Of a DNA stretch of 64,000 nt, positions 7,260 through 62,391 are shown piece after piece; the first letter of the stretch is position 1; every line of letters starts with the position of its first letter. Below the pieces are notes generated by a model, which was given only the letters and a program-made list of their open reading frames with translations, did not search any database and was not told the origin of the DNA. Made by a program: the position numbers and the translations under genes. Source of the stretch: Synergistaceae bacterium (GTDB lineage Bacteria > Synergistota > Synergistia > Synergistales > Aminobacteriaceae); the NCBI GenBank assembly GCA_017450125.1, contig JAFSWZ010000014.1, forward strand, positions 1 to 64,000. Direction: 5' to 3'.

Positions 7260-8177
7260 TTATACCCACTCGTCTATCTTCTTCCCGGATATACCCCACT
7301 CTACAAATTTCCCGCTGAGATTGCAATACCTGCAGGCAGGAATGGGCTCTGCAAGCCTGCGCAGAATCTCCTTCGCGCTCAGTTCTCCGTAAATGTCCAC
7401 AGAGTCGCTGTCTGTAATGAGGATGTCTTTCCTGAAGAAGTTTGAGAAGTGATGTACATGCGGCGCAAAGCAACAGGTATACAGCCTTCCATGACTAAGC
7501 GTGATGCAGTCGACAGAATGAGGGCATATCCCGAAGTTGATATTTATGTTGCTGTCTCCGGCAAGATTTACGGGACGTATGATGAACAAATCCCGTTCTT
7601 TGTCGCTTTGATTCCAAGCCCATCTGACTTGTACGCCGAACTTCAAAGCCGAGTCTCTTATTTTGTCTATAGGGAGATTTATCGGGTAGGCTGATATGAG
7701 TATGCCTGTATTGCTGTCGCGGCAGGACTCCCAGAAATCATCCTTCATTTGCGGCAGAAGTATGCCGTTCGTGAACACGGAGATTTCCCCATCAGAGAAA
7801 TTCTCTCTGGCAATCCTAACCAAAGTGCTGATCTCCGGGTGGAGCAGAGGCTCGCCGCCCATGAGCCATATGCGCTCGCATGTGTGGGAGAACACATCTC
7901 CCAGCCTAATGAAATCCCTGCGGAACTCCTCAACATCAACAAATTCCGGCCCGGCTAATGGTGAAAAGTTGCTGCATCCCCTGCAGTTCAGGTTGCAATG
8001 CTCAACGAGGTGCATTTCGAACTTCAGCTTTGCAGGTACTTTCTTCAGAGGCAGATGCAAGCACATCCTGATTCTGGCTGCAATAGACTTGATAAACATT
8101 CTGATGTGATCTAGTACAGGCAATACGGAGACAGGACAGATTCTCTTGAGGAAATTCCGAAGCCGCTGGATTACCAT
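7260..8177 (-). CDS. Radical SAM protein with SPASM-like C-terminus, glycan-locus type
   Basis: A 305-residue protein with a CNLNCRGC motif (C-x3-C-x2-C) at ~60-67 for the 4Fe-4S/SAM cluster, a GGEP motif near 107, and a C-terminal cysteine set (CPHSVDC, CC, CRYC) that may bind an auxiliary cluster. The fold and order match radical SAM/SPASM-like proteins. It sits just upstream, on the same strand, of two decayed glycan genes, so it may have acted on a surface polysaccharide or its precursor. Substrate unknown. The frame is intact although its neighbours are degraded. Confidence 0.8.
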   Translation of the reverse strand: MVIQRLRNFLKRICPVSVLPVLDHIRMFIKSIAARIRMCLHLPLKKVPAKLKFEMHLVEHCNLNCRGCSNFSPLAGPEFVDVEEFRRDFIRLGDVFSHTCERIWLMGGEPLLHPEISTLVRIARENFSDGEISVFTNGILLPQMKDDFWESCRDSNTGILISAYPINLPIDKIRDSALKFGVQVRWAWNQSDKERDLFIIRPVNLAGDSNININFGICPHSVDCITLSHGRLYTCCFAPHVHHFSNFFRKDILITDSDSVDIYGELSAKEILRRLAEPIPACRYCNLSGKFVEWGISGKKIDEWV

Positions 8178-8266
8178 ATTGTTCTACCTCTTTCAGCAAA
8201 ACAATACAGCGAAGTGTAAACAGGCGATATTATTCTTGTACAGGGAAAAACGGGACAGACTAAGCT

Positions 8267-8301
8267 ACTGCGAACTGCGAACTGCGAACTGCGAACTGCG
8301 A
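8267..8301. repeat. Five tandem copies of a 7-bp unit (ACTGCGA)
   Basis: Five perfect head-to-tail copies of ACTGCGA lie in the 237-base gap between the radical SAM gene and the end of aspS. No other gene or RNA is recognised in this gap apart from the aspS terminator. Confidence 0.95.
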
Positions 8302-8370
8302 ATATTATACGCACACGCGTTCATCACTGTCAACCTCCTTAATGCTGGGATTTCGGAGATTATATCATAA

Positions 8371-29749: not shown

Positions 29750-29990
29750 AAACTAACTTCTCTGCTCCATTCCTCATTCATAGCGCTCGCTTTCACGGTG
29801 TTACTGCTACTTGCGTTTGGTGTAACGCTCCAGAGGCTTTAATTCCCGACTAACGTATCGGTACATATCAATATTCTCGTGTCAGTGAAATGTTATTGAT
29901 TGTCCATAATGGTATAAATTCATGCTGGCGTTCAGGTCTCGGTCTATCACTGCACCGCAGTGCTCGCATCGATATATCCTGTCTGACAGC
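29750..29990 (-). ncRNA. Predicted omega RNA of TnpB (approximate)
   Basis: TnpB-linked guide RNAs overlap the 3' end of tnpB and run to the element's right end. The corresponding stretch here spans the zinc-finger codons of tnpB and ~130 noncoding bases after its stop. The location is inferred from the family; I did not derive a fold. Confidence 0.35.
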
Positions 29991-38916: not shown

Positions 38917-39471
38917 ATGCCTACGTACGGAATTAACGGAACAACCCTCAACCTCGAACACCTTGTGTTCAAGTGCAACAACGCGGCGAACTGGAGCGCG
39001 GACTATGTTCTTGCGGCGGGCGAACTCGGAGTAGAGCTCGACACCAAGAAGGTGAAGCTGGGCGACGGCTCAACAGTATGGAGCGAGCTGGGGTACTACA
39101 GCGACCCCGTAGTAAGCGGCCTCGTCGAGACTCTTACCGGCCGCGTAACCACAGCAGAAGGCACGCTGACATCACTGGGCACGCGCATGGACACTGCGGA
39201 GGGCAACATCACCTCACACGGGACGCGCCTTGACACAGCAGAGGGCAACATCACCTCACAGGGCACGCGCCTCACGACAGCTGAAGACGACATCGACGCA
39301 GTAGAGGGCAGACTTGATACTGCAGAGGCCGACATCGACGCGCTCGAGGCAAAGGACACGACGCACGAGTCGCGCATGACAGCGATTGAAGGTGTCAACA
39401 CAGCACAGGGAGGGAGGTTAGACGCGCTCGAGGCCATAACGACCATCAGCGCGAATCCCTTTTCTGCATAA
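38917..39471 (+). CDS. Tail fibre with Mtd-type N-terminal domain and coiled-coil heptads
   Basis: A 184-residue protein. Residues ~10-60 (FKCNNAANWSADYVLAAGELGVELDTKKVKLGDGSTVWSELGYY) match the N-terminal attachment domain of major tropism determinant and hyaluronidase-like fibres, with the GELGvexDTkKvKlGDGsxxWxxLxYY signature. Residues ~70-170 are an eleven-residue-type repeat of TAEGNITSxGTRLDTAE forming a coiled coil. GGAGGA precedes the start. No C-type lectin domain is attached in this gene. Confidence 0.75.
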   Translation: MPTYGINGTTLNLEHLVFKCNNAANWSADYVLAAGELGVELDTKKVKLGDGSTVWSELGYYSDPVVSGLVETLTGRVTTAEGTLTSLGTRMDTAEGNITSHGTRLDTAEGNITSQGTRLTTAEDDIDAVEGRLDTAEADIDALEAKDTTHESRMTAIEGVNTAQGGRLDALEAITTISANPFSA

Positions 39472-55364: not shown

Positions 55365-56339
55365 TCACTCCCTGCCCTGAACGTTGCTGAGGTCAACAAC
55401 ACAGCCTCCCCACGACAGGCCTACACCGAAACCTGCCAGCATTACGCGCCGGAGATTCGCGCTGTCGTTCTGTCTGAGGAGGTCGCGGACGGCTATCGGA
55501 ACAGACGCTGATACTGTGTTGCCGTAGTCTGTTACGTCGTTCCAGAAGGGGAGACCCTGAAGGCCGCACTTTTCCTGAAGGAAGCCGAGCATCATCTTAT
55601 TTGCCTGATGGAAGACGTAGTAATCTATCTCTTCACGCGTTAATGATGACTTGGCCAAGACTTCATCGAGCATCACGGGCACGGCATCAAGCGCGAACTC
55701 CATTATTCCCGCCCCGTCCATGTACAGATCTCTGTTCGTCCTGACGTTGCCGAAAGCGTCGGTGTACTCCTGAAGCTCCGTGCTGGAGTATGAATGCCTC
55801 GCTCCTCCTACAGGAACAATCAGCTTCTCCGCACCGCTCCCGTCCGTCCCGTACACAAAGCCGTAAATCCCTTCACTCTCCGCCTCAACCCCGCTCACCA
55901 GAGTAGCCGCCGCACCGTCCCCGAAAAGCGGGCGTGTCGCGTTGTCCTTAGGGCTGATGTGCCTGCTGTAGGTCTCTGAGGTCAGGAGAAGGACATTCTT
56001 TGCCTGCCCGGACTCGATTAATCCTTTGGCGAGGCCGAGACCGTAGACGTACCCTGAACACCCGAGATTGACATCAACAGCTCCGCATGTCTTCGGGAGA
56101 CCCAGCCTGTCCTGAATTATACATGCGGTTGTGGGCAGGAAATAGTCCGGCGACTGCGTGCAGAGAATCACGAAATCTATTAGTCCCCCCCCCCCGTCAG
56201 TAATTCCCGCAAAGAGATTCTCGGCGGCTTTCACTGCCATGTCTCCTGCGGTCATTCCGGGCGGACAGATTCGCCGGCGTTCGATGCCCGTCTTCTTCCG
56301 AAGGCGCGCGTTCGTGTTCTCCTCGACGACTTCGGGCAA
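55365..56339 (-). CDS. 3-oxoacyl-ACP synthase III-like enzyme 1, carries G11 tract
   Basis: A KAS III/FabH-type condensing enzyme: Cys in VDVNLGCSGYVYGL, His in YYVFHQANKMML and Asn in DYGNTVSASVP give the full C-H-N triad. The first standard start is a TTG at 56339, but the frame upstream (KAYITGINYY) looks like the native N-terminus, with ATA at 56370-56372 where ATG is expected. An 11-G run encodes part of TDGGGGLID (~50). It would condense an acyl-CoA starter with malonyl-ACP. Last gene of a seven-gene operon. Confidence 0.85.
   Translation of the reverse strand: MPEVVEENTNARLRKKTGIERRRICPPGMTAGDMAVKAAENLFAGITDGGGGLIDFVILCTQSPDYFLPTTACIIQDRLGLPKTCGAVDVNLGCSGYVYGLGLAKGLIESGQAKNVLLLTSETYSRHISPKDNATRPLFGDGAAATLVSGVEAESEGIYGFVYGTDGSGAEKLIVPVGGARHSYSSTELQEYTDAFGNVRTNRDLYMDGAGIMEFALDAVPVMLDEVLAKSSLTREEIDYYVFHQANKMMLGFLQEKCGLQGLPFWNDVTDYGNTVSASVPIAVRDLLRQNDSANLRRVMLAGFGVGLSWGGCVVDLSNVQGRE
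56185..56195. repeat. Homopolymer G11/C11 inside KAS III gene 1
   Basis: Eleven consecutive C on the plus strand (G on the coding strand), in frame with the intact gene. A gain or loss of one base would truncate the enzyme. Confidence 0.95.
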
Positions 56340-56368
56340 GTAGTAATTTATTCCCGTTATGTATGCTT

Positions 56369-57118
56369 TTATGCTGAATACCCCCCGTCAACAACAAAAC
56401 TCTTCCCGTTTATCCCGCACGAATCATTGCTCAGCAGGAACATCACGGACTGGCTGATGTACTCCGGCTTCCCCTTGCCAAGAAGATGTCCGGCCAAGAC
56501 ACCGGCAGTGTCATTCATCGCGGCTATTTCGCGGGTCAGCGGAGTGTCCACCCAGCCCGGAAGAATGCTGTTCACCCTGTGTCCGCCCGCCGAGAGCTCC
56601 TGTGCCAGCGAACTCACTGCACCATTCATCGCAGACTTGGCCGAAGCGTAGACGGTTTTGCCCTTGTCGGCAGTCAGCGCAGAGACAGACGAGAACAGCA
56701 CCGTAGACGTAGGAGCCTCCGAAAATTCTGGACTTGTTATGATGCGAAGAAACTCGATGCCTGCCCAGAAACTTGTGTCCATAATCTCATGCCCCCCCCC
56801 CCCGTAAGCAAAATTACGCAGAGGAGTAAGAGCGTCTATACCTGCCGCGTGTACTCCGCCTTTCAGCCTGCCGTGCTCCCTGACGAATGAAGCTATCGCG
56901 TCCTCGAGGGCTTGTGTGTCGCACACGTCGAGAGATGCCGTGAAGATGCGTGATGGTGCAATGTTACGCAGGGCTCCGAGACGTTCTGCGTTCCTGCCTA
57001 TGCCCAGAACAACTGCTCCGGCCTCCGCAAGGTCAAGGGCAACCTGTCTGCCTATCCCCGATGACGCGCCTGTAACTGCGTAACGTTCGCCCGAAAAATC
57101 GTAGATTACTCTGCTCAT
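56369..57118 (-). CDS. Short-chain dehydrogenase/reductase 1, carries G12 tract
   Basis: A 249-residue SDR, FabG-like: TGASSGIGRQVALDLAEAG (NAD(P)-binding glycine loop, ~16), catalytic Ser in LFSSVSAL, Tyr and Lys in YASAKSAMNG (~160), ILPGWVDTPL and a C-terminal INGKSFVVDGGYSA. Likely reduces the 3-ketoacyl-ACP made by the linked synthases. Twelve G encode GGGG in NFAYGGGGHEIM, where the paralogue next door has DRERA, so the tract is a local replacement. ATGA overlap with SDR 2. Confidence 0.9.
   Translation of the reverse strand: MSRVIYDFSGERYAVTGASSGIGRQVALDLAEAGAVVLGIGRNAERLGALRNIAPSRIFTASLDVCDTQALEDAIASFVREHGRLKGGVHAAGIDALTPLRNFAYGGGGHEIMDTSFWAGIEFLRIITSPEFSEAPTSTVLFSSVSALTADKGKTVYASAKSAMNGAVSSLAQELSAGGHRVNSILPGWVDTPLTREIAAMNDTAGVLAGHLLGKGKPEYISQSVMFLLSNDSCGINGKSFVVDGGYSA
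56792..56803. repeat. Homopolymer G12/C12 inside SDR gene 1
   Basis: Twelve consecutive C on the plus strand; the gene is in frame at this length. Confidence 0.95.
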
Positions 57119-57861
57119 GATAAATATCCTCCGTCAACTACTACGTTGCTGCCAGTTATCCAGCACGACGCATCACTGAGCAGGAACAGCACCATCTTGC
57201 TGATGTATTCCGGCCTGCCCGCACCAAAAAGATGCTTCGCTATGACGGCCTCGATTTCCGGGCTCGTCTCGAACTGCCCCGTCATTCCCGTAACCGTCCA
57301 GCCGGGAAGGATACTGTTGACGCGGTGCTTCTTGGCGGCGATCTCCTTCGCGGCACACTTCACTGCTGTGTTGACGGCGGATTTTGCGGCCGCGTAGGCG
57401 AACATCCCCTTAGCTGGATGGAGGGAGTATTCCGACGAGAAGAGCACCGTAGACGTTCCGGGATTGCCGTACTTCGCGCGCGTGATGAGCTGGAGGAGGT
57501 TCATCCCTGCCCAGAAGCTGACGTTCATTATCTCGTGCGCACGCTCACGGTCATAGCTCCGCAGGGGTGTCGTGTCGCTTATCCCCGCCGCGTGAACCCC
57601 TCCAGACAACTTGCCGTGCTCCGCGACGAAGCTCGCAATGGCATCCTCGAGAGCCTCAGAGTCGCAGACATCCAGCGATGCCGTGAAGATGTTTTCGGGG
57701 TGGGAGAGCCTGACCTCCTCGAGACGTTCTGCGTTCCTCCCAACAGCAAGAACACACGCTCCGGCTTCCGCGAGCTCGAGCGCGACCTGACGGCCTATTC
57801 CCGACGAAGCTCCCGTAACGACAAACTGTTCGCCAGAGAAGTCATAAGTTACCTTGCTCAT
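57115..57861 (-). CDS. Short-chain dehydrogenase/reductase 2
   Basis: A 248-residue SDR paralogue of SDR 1: TGASSGIGRQVALELAEAG, Ser in LFSSEYSL, YAAAKSAVN with Tyr and Lys, ILPGWTVTGM and GSNVVVDGGYLS. A complete Ser-Tyr-Lys set. Probably a second ketoreductase of the pathway, or an enoyl-type reduction partner. Overlaps KAS III 2 and SDR 1 by ATGA at both ends. No homopolymer tract. Confidence 0.9.
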   Translation of the reverse strand: MSKVTYDFSGEQFVVTGASSGIGRQVALELAEAGACVLAVGRNAERLEEVRLSHPENIFTASLDVCDSEALEDAIASFVAEHGKLSGGVHAAGISDTTPLRSYDRERAHEIMNVSFWAGMNLLQLITRAKYGNPGTSTVLFSSEYSLHPAKGMFAYAAAKSAVNTAVKCAAKEIAAKKHRVNSILPGWTVTGMTGQFETSPEIEAVIAKHLFGAGRPEYISKMVLFLLSDASCWITGSNVVVDGGYLS

Positions 57862-58856
57862 GATAAATACACCTCTCTAGTCTTTGTGCCCGAGAAGTCA
57901 GCGAGACACACTCCGACAGACAGACCCACACCAAAACCGCAGCACAGTACACGCTGATGCTTGGCCGCGTCCGTGCGCACAATCACTGAGGGTATGGAGG
58001 CTGATGATTCGTTGCCGATGTCGCCGGAAGTGAACGGCATCTTCTCGCGCGGAACTCCGAGTTTGTCGGCCAGGCTGTCCAGTATCAGCTTGTTGGCCTG
58101 ATGGCAGGCGTAGAGGGTAATGCTGTCGCGGGTGAGGCTGTTGCGTTCCATGAAGGAAGTGATGGCTTCAGGGACTTCGTTCATCGAGAAGTTGAGTATC
58201 TCCACGCCGTCAAGGTAGATGTAGCCGTCCCGTTTGGGGCTGGGAGTGATTCTGCTCCGGCTGTTCTCCATTATGACAACGCCGTACTTTTCCCCGTACG
58301 TGGCGAAAGCAAAAGGTATATCCTGCCCTCCGGGCGTTACGAGGATTGCTGAAGCTCCGTCGCCGTAGATGCACCGCGAAGCCCTGTCGTCGGGGTCTGT
58401 AATTCTGCTGTTCGTGTCCCCGCAGCCCAGCAGCACTGGAGCTCCGAGACGGCTCGACATCATCGCAGCGACGTACAGTCCCCTCACGAATCCCGAGCAC
58501 CCCTCGCTGATGTCAATGCATATGACGCTGTTGCTCAGGCCTAGTTTGTGCTGGAGGACGTGGCTTGTGGCAGGCATGTCGTAGTCAGGAGTCTTCGAGA
58601 CGAACACGAGCCCCGCAACCTCTTCACGCCTGCGCCCCTCTAGAATCTTCCCAGCTGCCTCCGCGAACAAGTCTGCTGTGGTTACACCCTCAGGAGCGAT
58701 CCTCAGCGAGGAGAAACCCGTGCTCTTGGCCAAGCGGGCGGCGGTCTTCTCGTTGAGGAGGTTGGGAGCGTATTCCGCGAGAGAGAACGTCTGCGCAGGA
58801 AGTGCACACACTATCTCCGCAACGTCTACGCCCCTGACACAGTCGAACACCGGCAT
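57858..58856 (-). CDS. 3-oxoacyl-ACP synthase III-like enzyme 2
   Basis: A 332-residue KAS III paralogue with full triad: Cys in DISEGCSGFVRGL, His in LYACHQANKLIL, Asn in DIGNESSASIPSV. It is only loosely similar to enzyme 1, so the two probably act on different acyl chains or steps. Begins two bases after the ACP stop. The order ACP-KAS-SDR-SDR-KAS resembles small dedicated fatty-acid/polyketide-like assembly lines. Confidence 0.9.
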   Translation of the reverse strand: MPVFDCVRGVDVAEIVCALPAQTFSLAEYAPNLLNEKTAARLAKSTGFSSLRIAPEGVTTADLFAEAAGKILEGRRREEVAGLVFVSKTPDYDMPATSHVLQHKLGLSNSVICIDISEGCSGFVRGLYVAAMMSSRLGAPVLLGCGDTNSRITDPDDRASRCIYGDGASAILVTPGGQDIPFAFATYGEKYGVVIMENSRSRITPSPKRDGYIYLDGVEILNFSMNEVPEAITSFMERNSLTRDSITLYACHQANKLILDSLADKLGVPREKMPFTSGDIGNESSASIPSVIVRTDAAKHQRVLCCGFGVGLSVGVCLADFSGTKTREVYLS

Positions 58857-58858
58857 AG

Positions 58859-59077
58859 CTACTCAGCCTGAAGCAGGTTGTACAGGTCGCGAATGCTCAC
58901 GCAGTCCCTGATCAGCGCAGGAGCAAGCCTCTTTCCGCACGAAGAGTTCGCGAACGCCGCGAAGCTCACGATGCTTAAACTGTCCCACTCCTCAACGTCT
59001 GCAAGCACTGTGTCCATCGTTACGCTCTCGTTGTCGAGGATTTCCCTGATTTTCGCTGTAAAGTCTTTCTCGTTCAT
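58859..59077 (-). CDS. Acyl carrier protein
   Basis: A 72-residue ACP: acidic, helical, with the phosphopantetheine-attachment Ser in VEEWDSLSIVSF (EWDSL motif, ~31-35). It would carry the growing acyl chain for the linked synthases and reductases. A dedicated ACP inside the operon supports a specialised acyl product rather than housekeeping fatty acid synthesis. Confidence 0.88.
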   Translation of the reverse strand: MNEKDFTAKIREILDNESVTMDTVLADVEEWDSLSIVSFAAFANSSCGKRLAPALIRDCVSIRDLYNLLQAE

Positions 59078-59101: not shown

Positions 59102-59935
59102 TTAGTAGTTGGTGCCGTTGAAGTCCATCGAGTTGGTGTCTGCCCTGTAGATCGGCGGCACAATGTCCATGACCTGCTCTGCCGCTCCCATTGTGTACTG
59201 GGACACGTGAGCCGTCTTGCGGCTGCCGAGTATTCCCGGCGTAAGAGAGTAGTACAGGTACGGCATGAGCCTGCTTGCGCGCGGAAATCTCTCCGCGAAC
59301 TTCGGGCTGACCTCGCCGAATATCCTTCCTGACGGAACAATGTTCTTGATCCTGCGCTTGAGCACGAAATAGCACTTGCCGTTCACGGTCAGGACAGCGG
59401 CGTTCCTCTGCGTGAACGAGAAATTCTCCGCGTACTCGTCGCTGATGTAGGGCATACTCTTCAGGAAGTCGTCGGTGAGGCCGCGATAGAAGCGCAGGTA
59501 GTATTCCGCCAGCACCCAGCCCGCCGCGCGGTTCACCGGGTGAGCCATCTTGCCGGGAAAACCGTAGATGCGTGCGTTGGGGTAGTGCTTCCCGAGCTCG
59601 TCGTAGAGAGAGTAGAGCATGTCGAGGACATAGCCGCCTTTGCGGACAGACGGCATTGTCGCGAAGTCGCACATCTGGAACGCAATCCGGCCGTCGAGGT
59701 CATTCCGCCAGGCTCCCCAAGTGGCGATGGGCTTGTCTTCACGGTAGACCACGATGATGAAGCTCTTGCCGTAGCAGTTGGCCTCGAACTTCCTGCGCAT
59801 GTAGTCAAGGTCGAAGTGATCCACGAATACGGTGTTGCAGACATCGCAGTAGTCCTGCGCGGTTTTGTCGGTGATTTCGCCTGACCACTCAATGGCCAGC
59901 TTCTCGCCGCGTTCTTCTGAAAGCGTAATAATCAT
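59102..59935 (-). CDS. Acyltransferase-like (GNAT-fold) protein
   Basis: A 277-residue protein starting MIITLSEERGEKLAIEW at 59935 on an ATGA overlap with the deacetylase gene. Segments FIIVVYREDKPIATWGAWRND, FATMPSVRKGGYVLDMLYSLYDEL and ARIYGFPG fit a GNAT core with the acyl-donor pocket after a beta strand. Next to a dedicated ACP and a deacetylase, it may transfer the acyl chain to an amino sugar (inference). No closer family recognised. Confidence 0.6.
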   Translation of the reverse strand: MIITLSEERGEKLAIEWSGEITDKTAQDYCDVCNTVFVDHFDLDYMRRKFEANCYGKSFIIVVYREDKPIATWGAWRNDLDGRIAFQMCDFATMPSVRKGGYVLDMLYSLYDELGKHYPNARIYGFPGKMAHPVNRAAGWVLAEYYLRFYRGLTDDFLKSMPYISDEYAENFSFTQRNAAVLTVNGKCYFVLKRRIKNIVPSGRIFGEVSPKFAERFPRASRLMPYLYYSLTPGILGSRKTAHVSQYTMGAAEQVMDIVPPIYRADTNSMDFNGTNY

Positions 59936-61732
59936 CTCTTCTTGCTGCCTCCAAGTTTCTTGATAATCTTGGACATTACCTGCTTCGCTGTGTAGATAAT
60001 GCCCCTCTTCCTCAGCATGTACCAATAGCTCTGGAAACGCTGCTTCTGCCTCACACGGAACTTCACGCGGTTGAGCTTCTTCTGTTCCGCCGCAAGCCTC
60101 GAACGCAGGCCGTCCATGTATTCGCGGCTGCGTGCCCTGAAGACCGCCCGACAGTACAGCCCGCCTTCACACGATGCAGTTACCGCAACATCCCCCGAGC
60201 CCTCGAACACAAGCCTTCCGTCCTCCAGACGCGCAGAACCCTCGACCTCCCAGCTGACCGGCGCATCAGTGCGGTACTGGTAGCACTCAAGCGGGATGCT
60301 CTGCTCGTCCGGGTCTCTGTCGTACTCGTAGACAAAATTCCCGCCGCTCGTTATCTGGATGAACGGCCTCACTACGGCTTCCTGTTCCGCCTGAGCGAAG
60401 AACTCAGCCTCCGCAAGTCCCGACTCACTGCTTCCCTGCGCGAGAACTTTTATCCGGCACTCGGTTACGCCCTGCTGTTCGGGAATCTCGAGAGTGAGGG
60501 GCAGACCTTCCGCAGGCAGAGGCCCGGCCTCAACGCTGTAGCCTGTGTTCATGCTCACGGAGACTTTCTGCAGAGGCACGCCGTCAACGTTGCCCCACAG
60601 CCTTACGAGCGAGATTGTCTGCGGTTCGTCCCACGAAAAGACGAGCTCCTTCACGGTGTCGTCCGCATCAGGAATCCACAGGTAGTTCTCCCACTTCGGG
60701 GTGTCGGAGTCAACTTCGGAGACGTTCAGCAGACGGAAATCTTTTGCGCAACCGGCATTCCCTGATGAGGCCGAGACTTTTGCGCGGAAGCTCAGGCTGT
60801 CAGTGCGCCGCCGCCAGAAGACTTCGTCGGCGTTGATTACGCGCTCTGCCTGAATGAACGCATCCTGAGAGACATGCTGACGCAGTGCCCGCTCGAGGAT
60901 GTTGCCCTCGAAGATAGGCCTGCTCGCTTCAGGGACGGGGAAACGCACGCGGTCTTCCCAAGAGTAGTACGACGTTCCGACTATCTTCTTGTCGTAGCTC
61001 TGCGTGTGTCCGGGCTCAGGCCTGACGGTTGACAGCAGGAACGTAGAGCTGAACAGGTCGGGCTCTCCATTCCAGCCTATGCAGTACGCGAACCTCCTGA
61101 AGACTTCGGGCAGGTAATCGTTGCCAGGTCTGGACAATATTTCTCCCATCACCTCGTCGAACGAGAGGGAAAGCATCCTGTGGTCTGCGTGCCAGTCGAA
61201 GTCTACGGCGAGAATGACATCAGCCCTGACGTGAAGGATGAGCTCCTTCAAGTCCTGCAAGTAGTTCCTGCGCGTGTAGGGGCTGTGCTGTTTGCGTGTC
61301 AGGTACGCAAAGTCCGTGAACCCCGCCGCTCCGTAGGTCTCTGTGTGGCCGCTGGCTGAAGTTATGGGGTTGTCCTTAGCGTAGAAGATGTGCCCGGTCT
61401 CTGAGTTGTTGAGGGTTTCGGCAAAAGCAAGGCAGAAGATGTGCGAGCGGTCGAGGCCAAGAACCTGCAGAGAGTTTGCGGCTTCACTTATGCGTACCTC
61501 GAACGAGTACCAGTCGTAATAATCCCCGCTGTTGGCGAACGCGACAAAGACTTCTGCACCTGCATGAATGAAATTCTGGATGGAGTTTGCTGCTACGTTG
61601 ATTTCGTCGTCCTGATGGGGTACTAGTACTAGAACTTTTCTTCCTGCATAAGAATCATCGAAGAATGAATCACAATAATGGTCAGGTCTGGTCTGGTCTG
61701 GTCTGGTCAAAATCGTAGCGTTTCACAGCCAT
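59932..61732 (-). CDS. PIG-L family deacetylase with C-terminal domains; reading frame phase-variable at the 5' end
   Basis: PIG-L type zinc deacetylase of N-acetylated sugars: VLVLVPHQDDEINVAANSIQ (His-x-Asp-Asp zinc motif) and DFDWHADHRMLSL (second His). After ~220 residues come a beta-sandwich like F5/8 (SLVRLWGNVDGVPLQKVS) and an Ig-like segment, then a basic helical tail. The best start is ATG at 61732 (AAAGGA upstream). In that frame translation stops after 16 codons because of a GACCA-type pentanucleotide repeat; the long frame begins only at TTG 61710. One more repeat unit would join them. First gene of the operon. Confidence 0.8.
61681..61709. repeat. Pentanucleotide tandem repeat at the 5' end of the deacetylase gene
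   Basis: Four perfect copies of GTCTG (plus strand) flanked by two partial copies. Five is not a multiple of three, so any copy change alters the frame between the ATG at 61732 and the deacetylase body. Confidence 0.95.
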
Positions 61733-61754
61733 TTTGTCAAGTCCTTTCTGCAAA

Positions 61755-61789
61755 ATATATTCCCTCCGGCCAAGTTATGACCAGAGGGA
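61755..61789 (-). terminator. Intrinsic terminator of hpf
   Basis: Minus-strand stem TCCCTCTGG/CCGGAGGGA (one T-G pair, 11-base loop) followed by ATATATTTTG. It separates hpf from the deacetylase gene. Confidence 0.7.
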
Positions 61790-61804: not shown

Positions 61805-62338
61805 TTACCTTACCGGCTCAAGGAGGCCGTAGCTGTTCTCCCCGCGCTTGTAGATGACGTTGATTTCTCCTGTCGCGGCGTTCTGGAACATGAAGAACTC
61901 GTGCCCAACTAACTCCATCTGCATTGCCGCTTCTACGGGGTCCATCGGGTGAAATTCCACCTTCTTGACCTTGTCGATTGCGGGAACATTGCCGTCAGCC
62001 TCTGCCGTCTCCTCAAGGCTGAACGTGAACTCTGTGTCCGCGCCTAACTGTGCCTTGTCCTTAAGGTATGAGTTGTACTTCTTGATTCTGCGCTCCAAGT
62101 TCTTGAGCGACTGGTCGAATGCCGTCCTCATGTCCGTTGCGTCTTCCTCAGCACGGAGAATTACGCCGTTGGCATTTGCGGTGGTTTCGACGTTGAAGCT
62201 GCCCTTGTGATGCGTAACAACTATCTGGCAGTTCAGTATCTTGCGGAAGAACTTCTCGAGCTTGGAGATCTTCTTCTCCATGTAGTCCCTGAGTTTGTCG
62301 TCAACAGTTGCGCCGCGCTGTACAAACCGAACTTCCAT
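61805..62338 (-). CDS. hpf: Ribosome hibernation promoting factor, long form
   Basis: A 177-residue protein: N-terminal beta-alpha domain with MEVRFVQRGATVDDKLRDYMEKKISKLEKFF, which binds the 30S decoding site, and a C-terminal dimerisation domain with VEFHPMDPVEAAMQMELVGHEFFMFQNAATGEINVIYKR. The two-domain long form makes 100S ribosome dimers in stationary phase. ATG at 62338 follows AGGAGGTG. Confidence 0.95.
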   Translation of the reverse strand: MEVRFVQRGATVDDKLRDYMEKKISKLEKFFRKILNCQIVVTHHKGSFNVETTANANGVILRAEEDATDMRTAFDQSLKNLERRIKKYNSYLKDKAQLGADTEFTFSLEETAEADGNVPAIDKVKKVEFHPMDPVEAAMQMELVGHEFFMFQNAATGEINVIYKRGENSYGLLEPVR

Positions 62339-62391
62339 AAACAGCACCTCCTGAAAAGTTGAATAGCTGGATGCACATATTATACTAGATT

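Follow-up and report, generated by a model that had tools for sequence, protein, structure and literature searches.

The locus examined here lies on the minus strand of a 64,000-nucleotide stretch of Synergistaceae DNA, referred to below as the window. It encodes a deacetylase-like protein of about 590 residues (592 amino acids from TTG 61710; positions 59932–61710). This frame carries a PIG-L domain (PF02585) scoring 52.5 bits against a curated cut-off of 28.2 (E = 9e-14) and shares an HxDDE-type motif with the PIG-L/GlcNAc-PI de-N-acetylase family; its C-terminal half is without assignment. It is preceded on the same strand by a compact leader comprising a Shine-Dalgarno-like AAAGGA (61742–61747) that is conserved across the leader alignment, a −35-like TTGACA box (61735–61740), an ATG (61730–61732), an inner −10-like box, TACGAT (61712–61717), located 17 nt from TTGACA, and a pentanucleotide tract of six units (61679–61708). 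The tract is composed of four perfect GACCA units (61708–61689), a variant GACCT (61688–61684), and a final GACCA (61683–61679).

Translated from the ATG, the leader reads MAVKRYDFDQTRPDQT and stops after 16 codons at a TGA (61682–61684, minus strand) supplied by the variant unit GACCT. The deacetylase frame sits one frame over and opens at TTG 61710, which has no ribosome binding site. The initial annotation of this DNA had described both frames in these terms, and all coordinates agree on the minus strand. It had counted four repeat units, which holds for the perfect GACCA copies but not for the tract as a whole, where six units stand in tandem. Its proposal that one unit more, or two fewer, would join the ATG to the long frame is borne out in silico: one added unit gives 601 codons from ATG 61732, compared with 16 for none and 37 for two. 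The locus thus has the attributes of a contingency locus, namely a tandem repeat whose period is not a multiple of three within the 5′ coding region and a full-length product from one phase in three. The deacetylase gene appears to be out of frame (OFF) in the one consensus assembly available, a type of record that can miscount repeats.

Perfect arrays of period 4–9 with at least 3.5 copies occur twice in the window, as the GACCA tract and as a heptamer tract at 8267–8302, and are absent from 30 Markov-1 surrogates of the window. Because none of the 30 surrogates holds a comparable array, the GACCA tract is not attributable to chance. A tandem repeat of 42 bp in about three copies, with a period that is a multiple of three, is also found at 39150–39294.

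Approximately 70 bp separate the deacetylase leader from the preceding ORF (61805–62347). A consensus scan places a candidate outer promoter, TGGTCA-18-TATATT, at 61754–61783 on the minus strand (9 of 12 consensus positions), overlapping a terminator-like hairpin (61789–61761) of the upstream gene. On the other side, the gene at 59102–59935 (minus strand) starts at ATG 59935, which overlaps the deacetylase TGA as ATGA, and is probably coupled to it; this gene, searched in its longer form from 60025, has no Pfam match. The remainder of the likely transcription unit (55365–59077, minus strand) contains a small ORF, two ketoacyl-ACP synthase III-like genes, and two short-chain dehydrogenases. The small ORF (58859–59077, minus strand) gave no Pfam hit and would be an acyl carrier protein by context only. 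From this gene order, the deacetylase is the probable head of an operon that continues with the ATGA-overlapping gene and then the synthase-like and dehydrogenase genes. An Rfam scan detected neither a small RNA nor a riboswitch at the deacetylase locus; its only matches, both elsewhere in the window, were to tRNA and to a RAGATH-18 RNA (29770–29836, minus strand, 60.2 bits).

Among 61 genomes searched, the deacetylase protein is found in three: the window's own (G000), G028 (63% identity), and G010 (57%, held over its length). At the G028 locus, five GACCA units are present and the contig breaks off inside the repeat. The G010 ortholog possesses the same leader followed by a decayed repeat, AACCA GACTA GACCA GACCG, and its leader ATG is in frame with the protein for 593 codons (MQNRAIINQTRPDRYDSSFF...). 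In addition, the position of the rival start, TTG 61710, is occupied by TTA in G010. Judged by its sequence, the G010 locus is a natural ON version of the window locus. Since its ATG is in frame and TTA replaces TTG, translation likely begins in truth at the leader ATG, with the window locus likely in the OFF phase, suggesting that in the ON phase the window protein would begin at ATG 61732.

The second array in the window belongs to another leader of the same kind (8304–8340, minus strand), with AAGGAGG at 8340–8334, TTGACA at 8333–8328, ATG at 8324–8322, and TATAAT at 8309–8304. It is followed by a heptanucleotide tract of about five CGCAGTT units (8267–8302, minus strand) that is presently in an OFF phase. 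The putative target is a radical SAM gene (7260–8177, minus strand), and control would be exerted by coupling, with the open leader phase ending at TAA 8173–8171, over the ATG at 8177. This locus is therefore of the coupled type described below, currently in a closed phase. The heptamer switch (8171–8340, minus strand) adjoins aspS, and related species hold different downstream genes at the aspS site.

Across loci, the standard leader has a fixed order of extended −10, Shine-Dalgarno, TTGACA, NTG start, TATAAT-like box, and repeat. Leaders of pentamers and heptamers align as [A]AGGA[GG]-TTGACA-NTG (within about 2–12 nt)-...-TATAAT-repeat. In the window's own 2.16-Mb genome there are 21 leader-plus-repeat loci with 16 different units of 5, 7, or 13 nt. 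The pattern AAGGA-N1-3-TTGACA has 12 matches in this genome, nine of which are leaders. A sequence-only model (R1), built from 72 leaders and ending at the TATAAT-like box before the repeat, gives 24 matches at E up to 1; these are followed by a repeat of at least two copies in 18 cases, by a 13-nt unit recognised by eye in one, and by no repeat in five. The total of 21 loci includes two found by pattern only (C29:61346 and C23:48446). GACCA in three or more copies occurs at two further sites in this genome, one before a glycosyltransferase 2 gene, where it is in frame for 339 codons and hence ON, and one preceding a sulfatase-family gene.

Model R1 has matches at E up to 0.02 in 38 of 43 genomes of the genus and weak matches in 2 of 38 family genomes outside it. 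GACCA repeats of three or more units are found in 17 of the 43 genus genomes, at about 49 loci after merging the matches listed, and (CGCAGTT)n in 21; the reversed-pattern control was discarded for GACCA searches because reversed GACCA is a rotation of GACCA. The records behind the GACCA matches listed are goat-gut Synergistaceae metagenome-assembled genomes (MAGs) and one uncultured Fretibacterium. A similar leader with five GACCA units and a contig end is present in a MAG from another phylum, Eubacterium sp. RGIG4867 from roe deer rumen (L210), representing either transfer or mis-binning. Likewise, two loci, L056 (G061) and L068 (G028), are identical over 1.7 kb in MAGs of two species, a probable result of mis-binning or very recent transfer. 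In G033, two loci (L091 and L092) have the same leader type followed by a repeat in reverse orientation, (TGGTC)7; these two and the identical pair were left out of some counts. A phage origin of the leader is unsupported, as the strict leader pattern had 0 matches in viral contigs.

The association was evaluated in 60 further R1 leaders, selected irrespective of any repeat and taken in order among the matches listed, loci already included in the collection being omitted. A repeat directly follows the box in 53 of them (at least three copies in 44), compared with a mean of 2.9 (maximum 6) for shuffled tails and 2 of 60 for sequence 300 nt upstream. With periods of 4–14 allowed, 33 of the 53 repeats have period 7 and 20 have period 5, and the repeat starts within −2 to +3 nt of the TATAAT-like box in 50 of 53. 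All loci examined together hold 51 different 5- or 7-nt units, a tally that scanned periods 5, 7, and 13 only, so the restriction to periods 5 and 7 rests on the 60-leader set. In 50 of these 51 units, a sense-strand stop is absent in every frame; letter-shuffled units average 45.1 without a stop, and 17 of 5000 shuffles reach the observed value. The spacer contains an NTG in 129 of 140 leaders; the repeat-to-box distance in that set was determined by its selection and was not used.

The consequences of each phase were followed in 130 leaders, of which 40 are not evaluable (16 with a contig end, nine with no recognised start, eight with a stop before the repeat, and seven with no repeat), some of the missing starts and early stops being script artefacts. 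The 90 evaluable leaders comprise 47 in which one phase joins the leader to a long frame, 38 that are coupled, and five that are neither. A locus was considered coupled if the stop of its longest phase falls no more than 20 nt from the start codon of an ORF, the usual arrangement being ATGA. As a control, the two shorter phases of non-fused loci are coupled in 2 of 86 cases (Fisher P = 1e-24), suggesting that in some loci translational coupling to a downstream start codon would switch the gene. A Shine-Dalgarno-like motif is present at 33 of the 38 coupled starts. Present phases are distributed as 25 open, 35 needing one more unit, and 30 needing two more, which fits equal shares (P = 0.43); these loci come mostly from MAGs, with one consensus genome per species, and tracts of 4–6 units may be assembly-limited. 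One locus, L062, has been broken by a point mutation that places a TAG in the first repeat unit.

The commonest Pfam families among the 90 controlled ORFs are glycosyltransferase 2 (11), radical SAM (9), glycosyltransferase 1 (7), and acyltransferase 3 (6), with GT61, GT11, DUF1919, methyltransferases, and polysaccharide pyruvyltransferase among the groups of three or four. This tally covers the best 25 of 64 Pfam families, and three of the 90 ORFs, from loci in the "neither" class (L367, L381, and L390), are probably unrelated neighbours. Judged by family name, the targets would largely build or decorate surface glycan, and a PIG-L deacetylase fits this set.

Unit number differs in one pair of related loci. 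In two species, near-identical loci carry 3.0 (G012, L344) and 15.6 units (G035, L346), with 93.5% identity across the 1,558 bp that precede the repeat, matching sequence for 53 bp after it, and 67.7% identity beyond; this is the one clear inter-species pair, a second (L350/L351) being cut by a contig end. The G010 ON ortholog, the recurrent leader, and these differing unit numbers support the initial annotation in its reading of the layout as translational phase variation by slipped-strand mispairing, which is the best-supported interpretation of the deacetylase locus.

Genes downstream of the leaders also vary. At 43 pairs of sites with a conserved upstream flank, and counting pairs with enough sequence, homology extends further upstream in 20 of 31, compared with 8 of 36 for the first 0.9 kb downstream (P = 0.0006) and 6 of 21 for 2.1–4.5 kb downstream (P = 0.02). 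Leader spacers from one genome resemble each other more than do those of orthologous sites (14.2 vs 9.2 of 17 positions for heptamer leaders, 8.8 vs 6.4 for pentamer leaders), a difference reached by 0 of 5000 label permutations for heptamers and 2 of 5000 for pentamers. These comparisons therefore indicate that downstream genes change at fixed sites while the leaders evolve in concert, with gene conversion, inversion, and ordinary gene turnover as candidate routes. In the 20-contig assembly G030, 4 of 11 leaders are no more than 150 bp from a contig end (the start of C2 and the ends of C4, C7, and C10). Such breaks fit alternative junctions in a heterogeneous population or long repeats, but also ordinary assembler behaviour, and were not used as evidence.

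The leader contains two promoter-like elements. An exact TATAAT is located about 30 nt before TTGACA in 60 of 129 leaders, compared with 4.5 after shuffling, and the outer extended −10 is an exact TGnTATAAT in 55 of 129; an outer promoter of this kind suits a translational model. The inner element, a box that departs from TATAAT by at most one mismatch and is separated from TTGACA by a spacer of 16–18 nt, is present in 100 of 129 leaders (controls: 1, 6, and 0 of 129). This near-perfect sigma-70 pair would start RNA inside the repeat, for which the translational model offers no explanation, and it may either have a role in the switch or be a second, minor promoter. A speculative and probably mistaken extension views the leader as a purpose-built mutability cassette, in which the inner pair makes RNA polymerase open and scrunch the first repeat units, promoting slippage and inter-leader recombination. 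The genus would then possess about 20 hypermutable sockets that are interchangeable, with a 5- or 7-nt unit particular to each and a mutation rate set by a promoter, and downstream genes would be swapped between them. The conserved pair before each repeat offers a direct way to ask if repeats are destabilised by transcription initiation.

Taken together, the GACCA tract is very probably a contingency-locus switch, one of about 21 in its genome built on a shared leader and acting by fusion or coupling. Transcription would begin upstream of the leader, with ribosomes loading at AAAGGA and starting at ATG 61732, and slipped-strand mispairing during replication would alter the number of GACCA units. 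Where that number equals 1 modulo 3 (4, 7, and so on), the leader frame would enter the PIG-L deacetylase; with other numbers it would stop within about 16–37 codons, leaving the deacetylase off and, probably, the following gene coupled to it as well. The six units of the window would place the sequenced cell in the OFF state. Leaders elsewhere would work alike, their units being interchangeable and 5 or 7 nt long (13 nt in one case), and at coupled loci a leader frame ending on the gene's start codon would switch that gene by translational coupling. Slippage would then be the cause of switching, protein would be lost in OFF cells, and the benefit may be a varied cell-surface glycan.

Several other explanations can be weighed against this one. 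Constitutive production of the deacetylase could begin at TTG 61710 or some other weak start, with the repeat neutral. TTG 61710 does open the long frame, and a TTG stands at the box/repeat junction in many leaders, yet it lacks a ribosome binding site, and the ON ortholog in G010 has TTA there and begins its protein at the leader ATG. The frequent spacer NTG and the selection on one leader phase seen at coupled loci also argue against a neutral repeat, making this reading very improbable. Still less probable is an assembly or consensus error in a truly intact frame, or a dying pseudogene. MAG consensus, error-prone repeat counts, and point-mutated loci such as L062 favour this view; however, the 592 codons past the repeat are intact, the ortholog remains 57% identical over its length, and near-equal phases over 90 loci are unlike random error in otherwise ON genes. 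The least probable alternative is phase-variable transcription attenuation like that of Streptococcus gallolyticus pil1, in which a leader ribosome opens a terminator. The pil1 system likewise relies on a repeat inside a leader frame with phase-dependent length (PMC3894217), and the coupled loci do have their repeat inside a leader ORF with a ribosome binding site and start codon. Terminator-like hairpins, on the other hand, occur in 3 of 38 coupled leaders against 2.2 expected, and folding z-scores average +0.46, indicating no excess of either, so attenuation was rejected for coupled loci; at the window locus, which is fused, an attenuator would be superfluous.

Two further explanations assign the repeat a different primary role. 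If the inner TTGACA-N16-18-TATAAT were the main promoter, RNA would start in the repeat, which would then act on transcription or on the RNA itself. The high frequency of the inner box and the tight placement of the repeat beside it favour this idea, but a transcript of this kind would lack both Shine-Dalgarno and NTG, so that fused genes would lose their start and be untranslatable, and it would offer no account of the Shine-Dalgarno, the NTG, or the outer extended −10. A promoter-only reading was therefore rejected as the main mechanism, and we consider the idea improbable. There is a minor but appreciable chance that the repeats serve mainly as recombination anchors, swapping downstream genes between fixed leader sites, with phase variation secondary. 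The contrast between upstream and downstream homology and the likeness of spacers within genomes are consistent with this role, although it leaves phase-specific fusion and coupling unexplained; moreover, many loci show turnover of accessory genes, and flanks of a length that would distinguish cargo turnover from rearrangement are few. The translational switch has its own weak points, as 5 of 90 loci match neither mode and the inner TTGACA/TATAAT pair is unaccounted for.

The best-known cases of repeat-based phase variation come from host-adapted Proteobacteria, where a single type of repeat is often preferred. The uncultured Synergistaceae genus described here, from goat gut and related samples, instead seems to use one leader with dozens of 5- and 7-nt units, often on surface-glycan genes, and appears to flip surface-sugar genes at random across the genus. 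Since one leader pattern locates the switches of a genome, metagenomes could reveal which of them are ON or OFF. GACCA repeats in Brachyspira, Endomicrobium, and other bacteria outside the phylum (28 loci, from at least 119 stretches) lie mostly at gene ends or between genes, without the leader, and represent a different system. The exceptions are L210, described above, and a Brachyspira alvinipulli locus (L233:171–1871, minus strand), which has an ATG, 11 GACCA units, and then 567 open codons that include an N6/N4 DNA methylase domain, all behind a different leader, and is likely an independent phase-variable methyltransferase.

The closest parallels are found in two other species; the leader/repeat combination itself was not found described in the CC0, CC BY, and CC BY-SA literature of PubMed Central. 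In Haemophilus influenzae, contingency loci such as lic, mod, and hsdM carry simple sequence repeats of non-3n period near the ORF starts of surface and lipopolysaccharide genes, and pentamers of few units can switch, the (GACGA)4 tract of hsdM being reported to do so at high rates (PMC2651432, citing Zaleski 2005). These repeats are mostly tetramers at individual gene starts, whereas here about 50 pentamers and heptamers stand behind one leader, at about 20 loci in the window's genome, and include a coupled mode. The same source describes heptamer tracts in the promoters of hmw1A and hmw2A that modulate transcription (PMC2651432); heptamers likewise occupy the 5′ region here, but in the proposed mechanism it is the ribosome that would read the repeat. 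The GCAGA leader peptide of S. gallolyticus pil1/pil3 places a pentamer in a leader frame with its own ribosome binding site and ATG, so that phase sets leader length and hence the downstream gene (PMC3894217). Leader translation there opens a terminator hairpin, whereas here hairpins show no excess and the long frame fuses to the gene or stops on its start codon. Repeat-driven translational phase variation is thus a known principle, and what is new is its unusually standardised form, with one leader, interchangeable 5- and 7-nt repeats, about 20 loci in the window's genome, and both fused and coupled modes.
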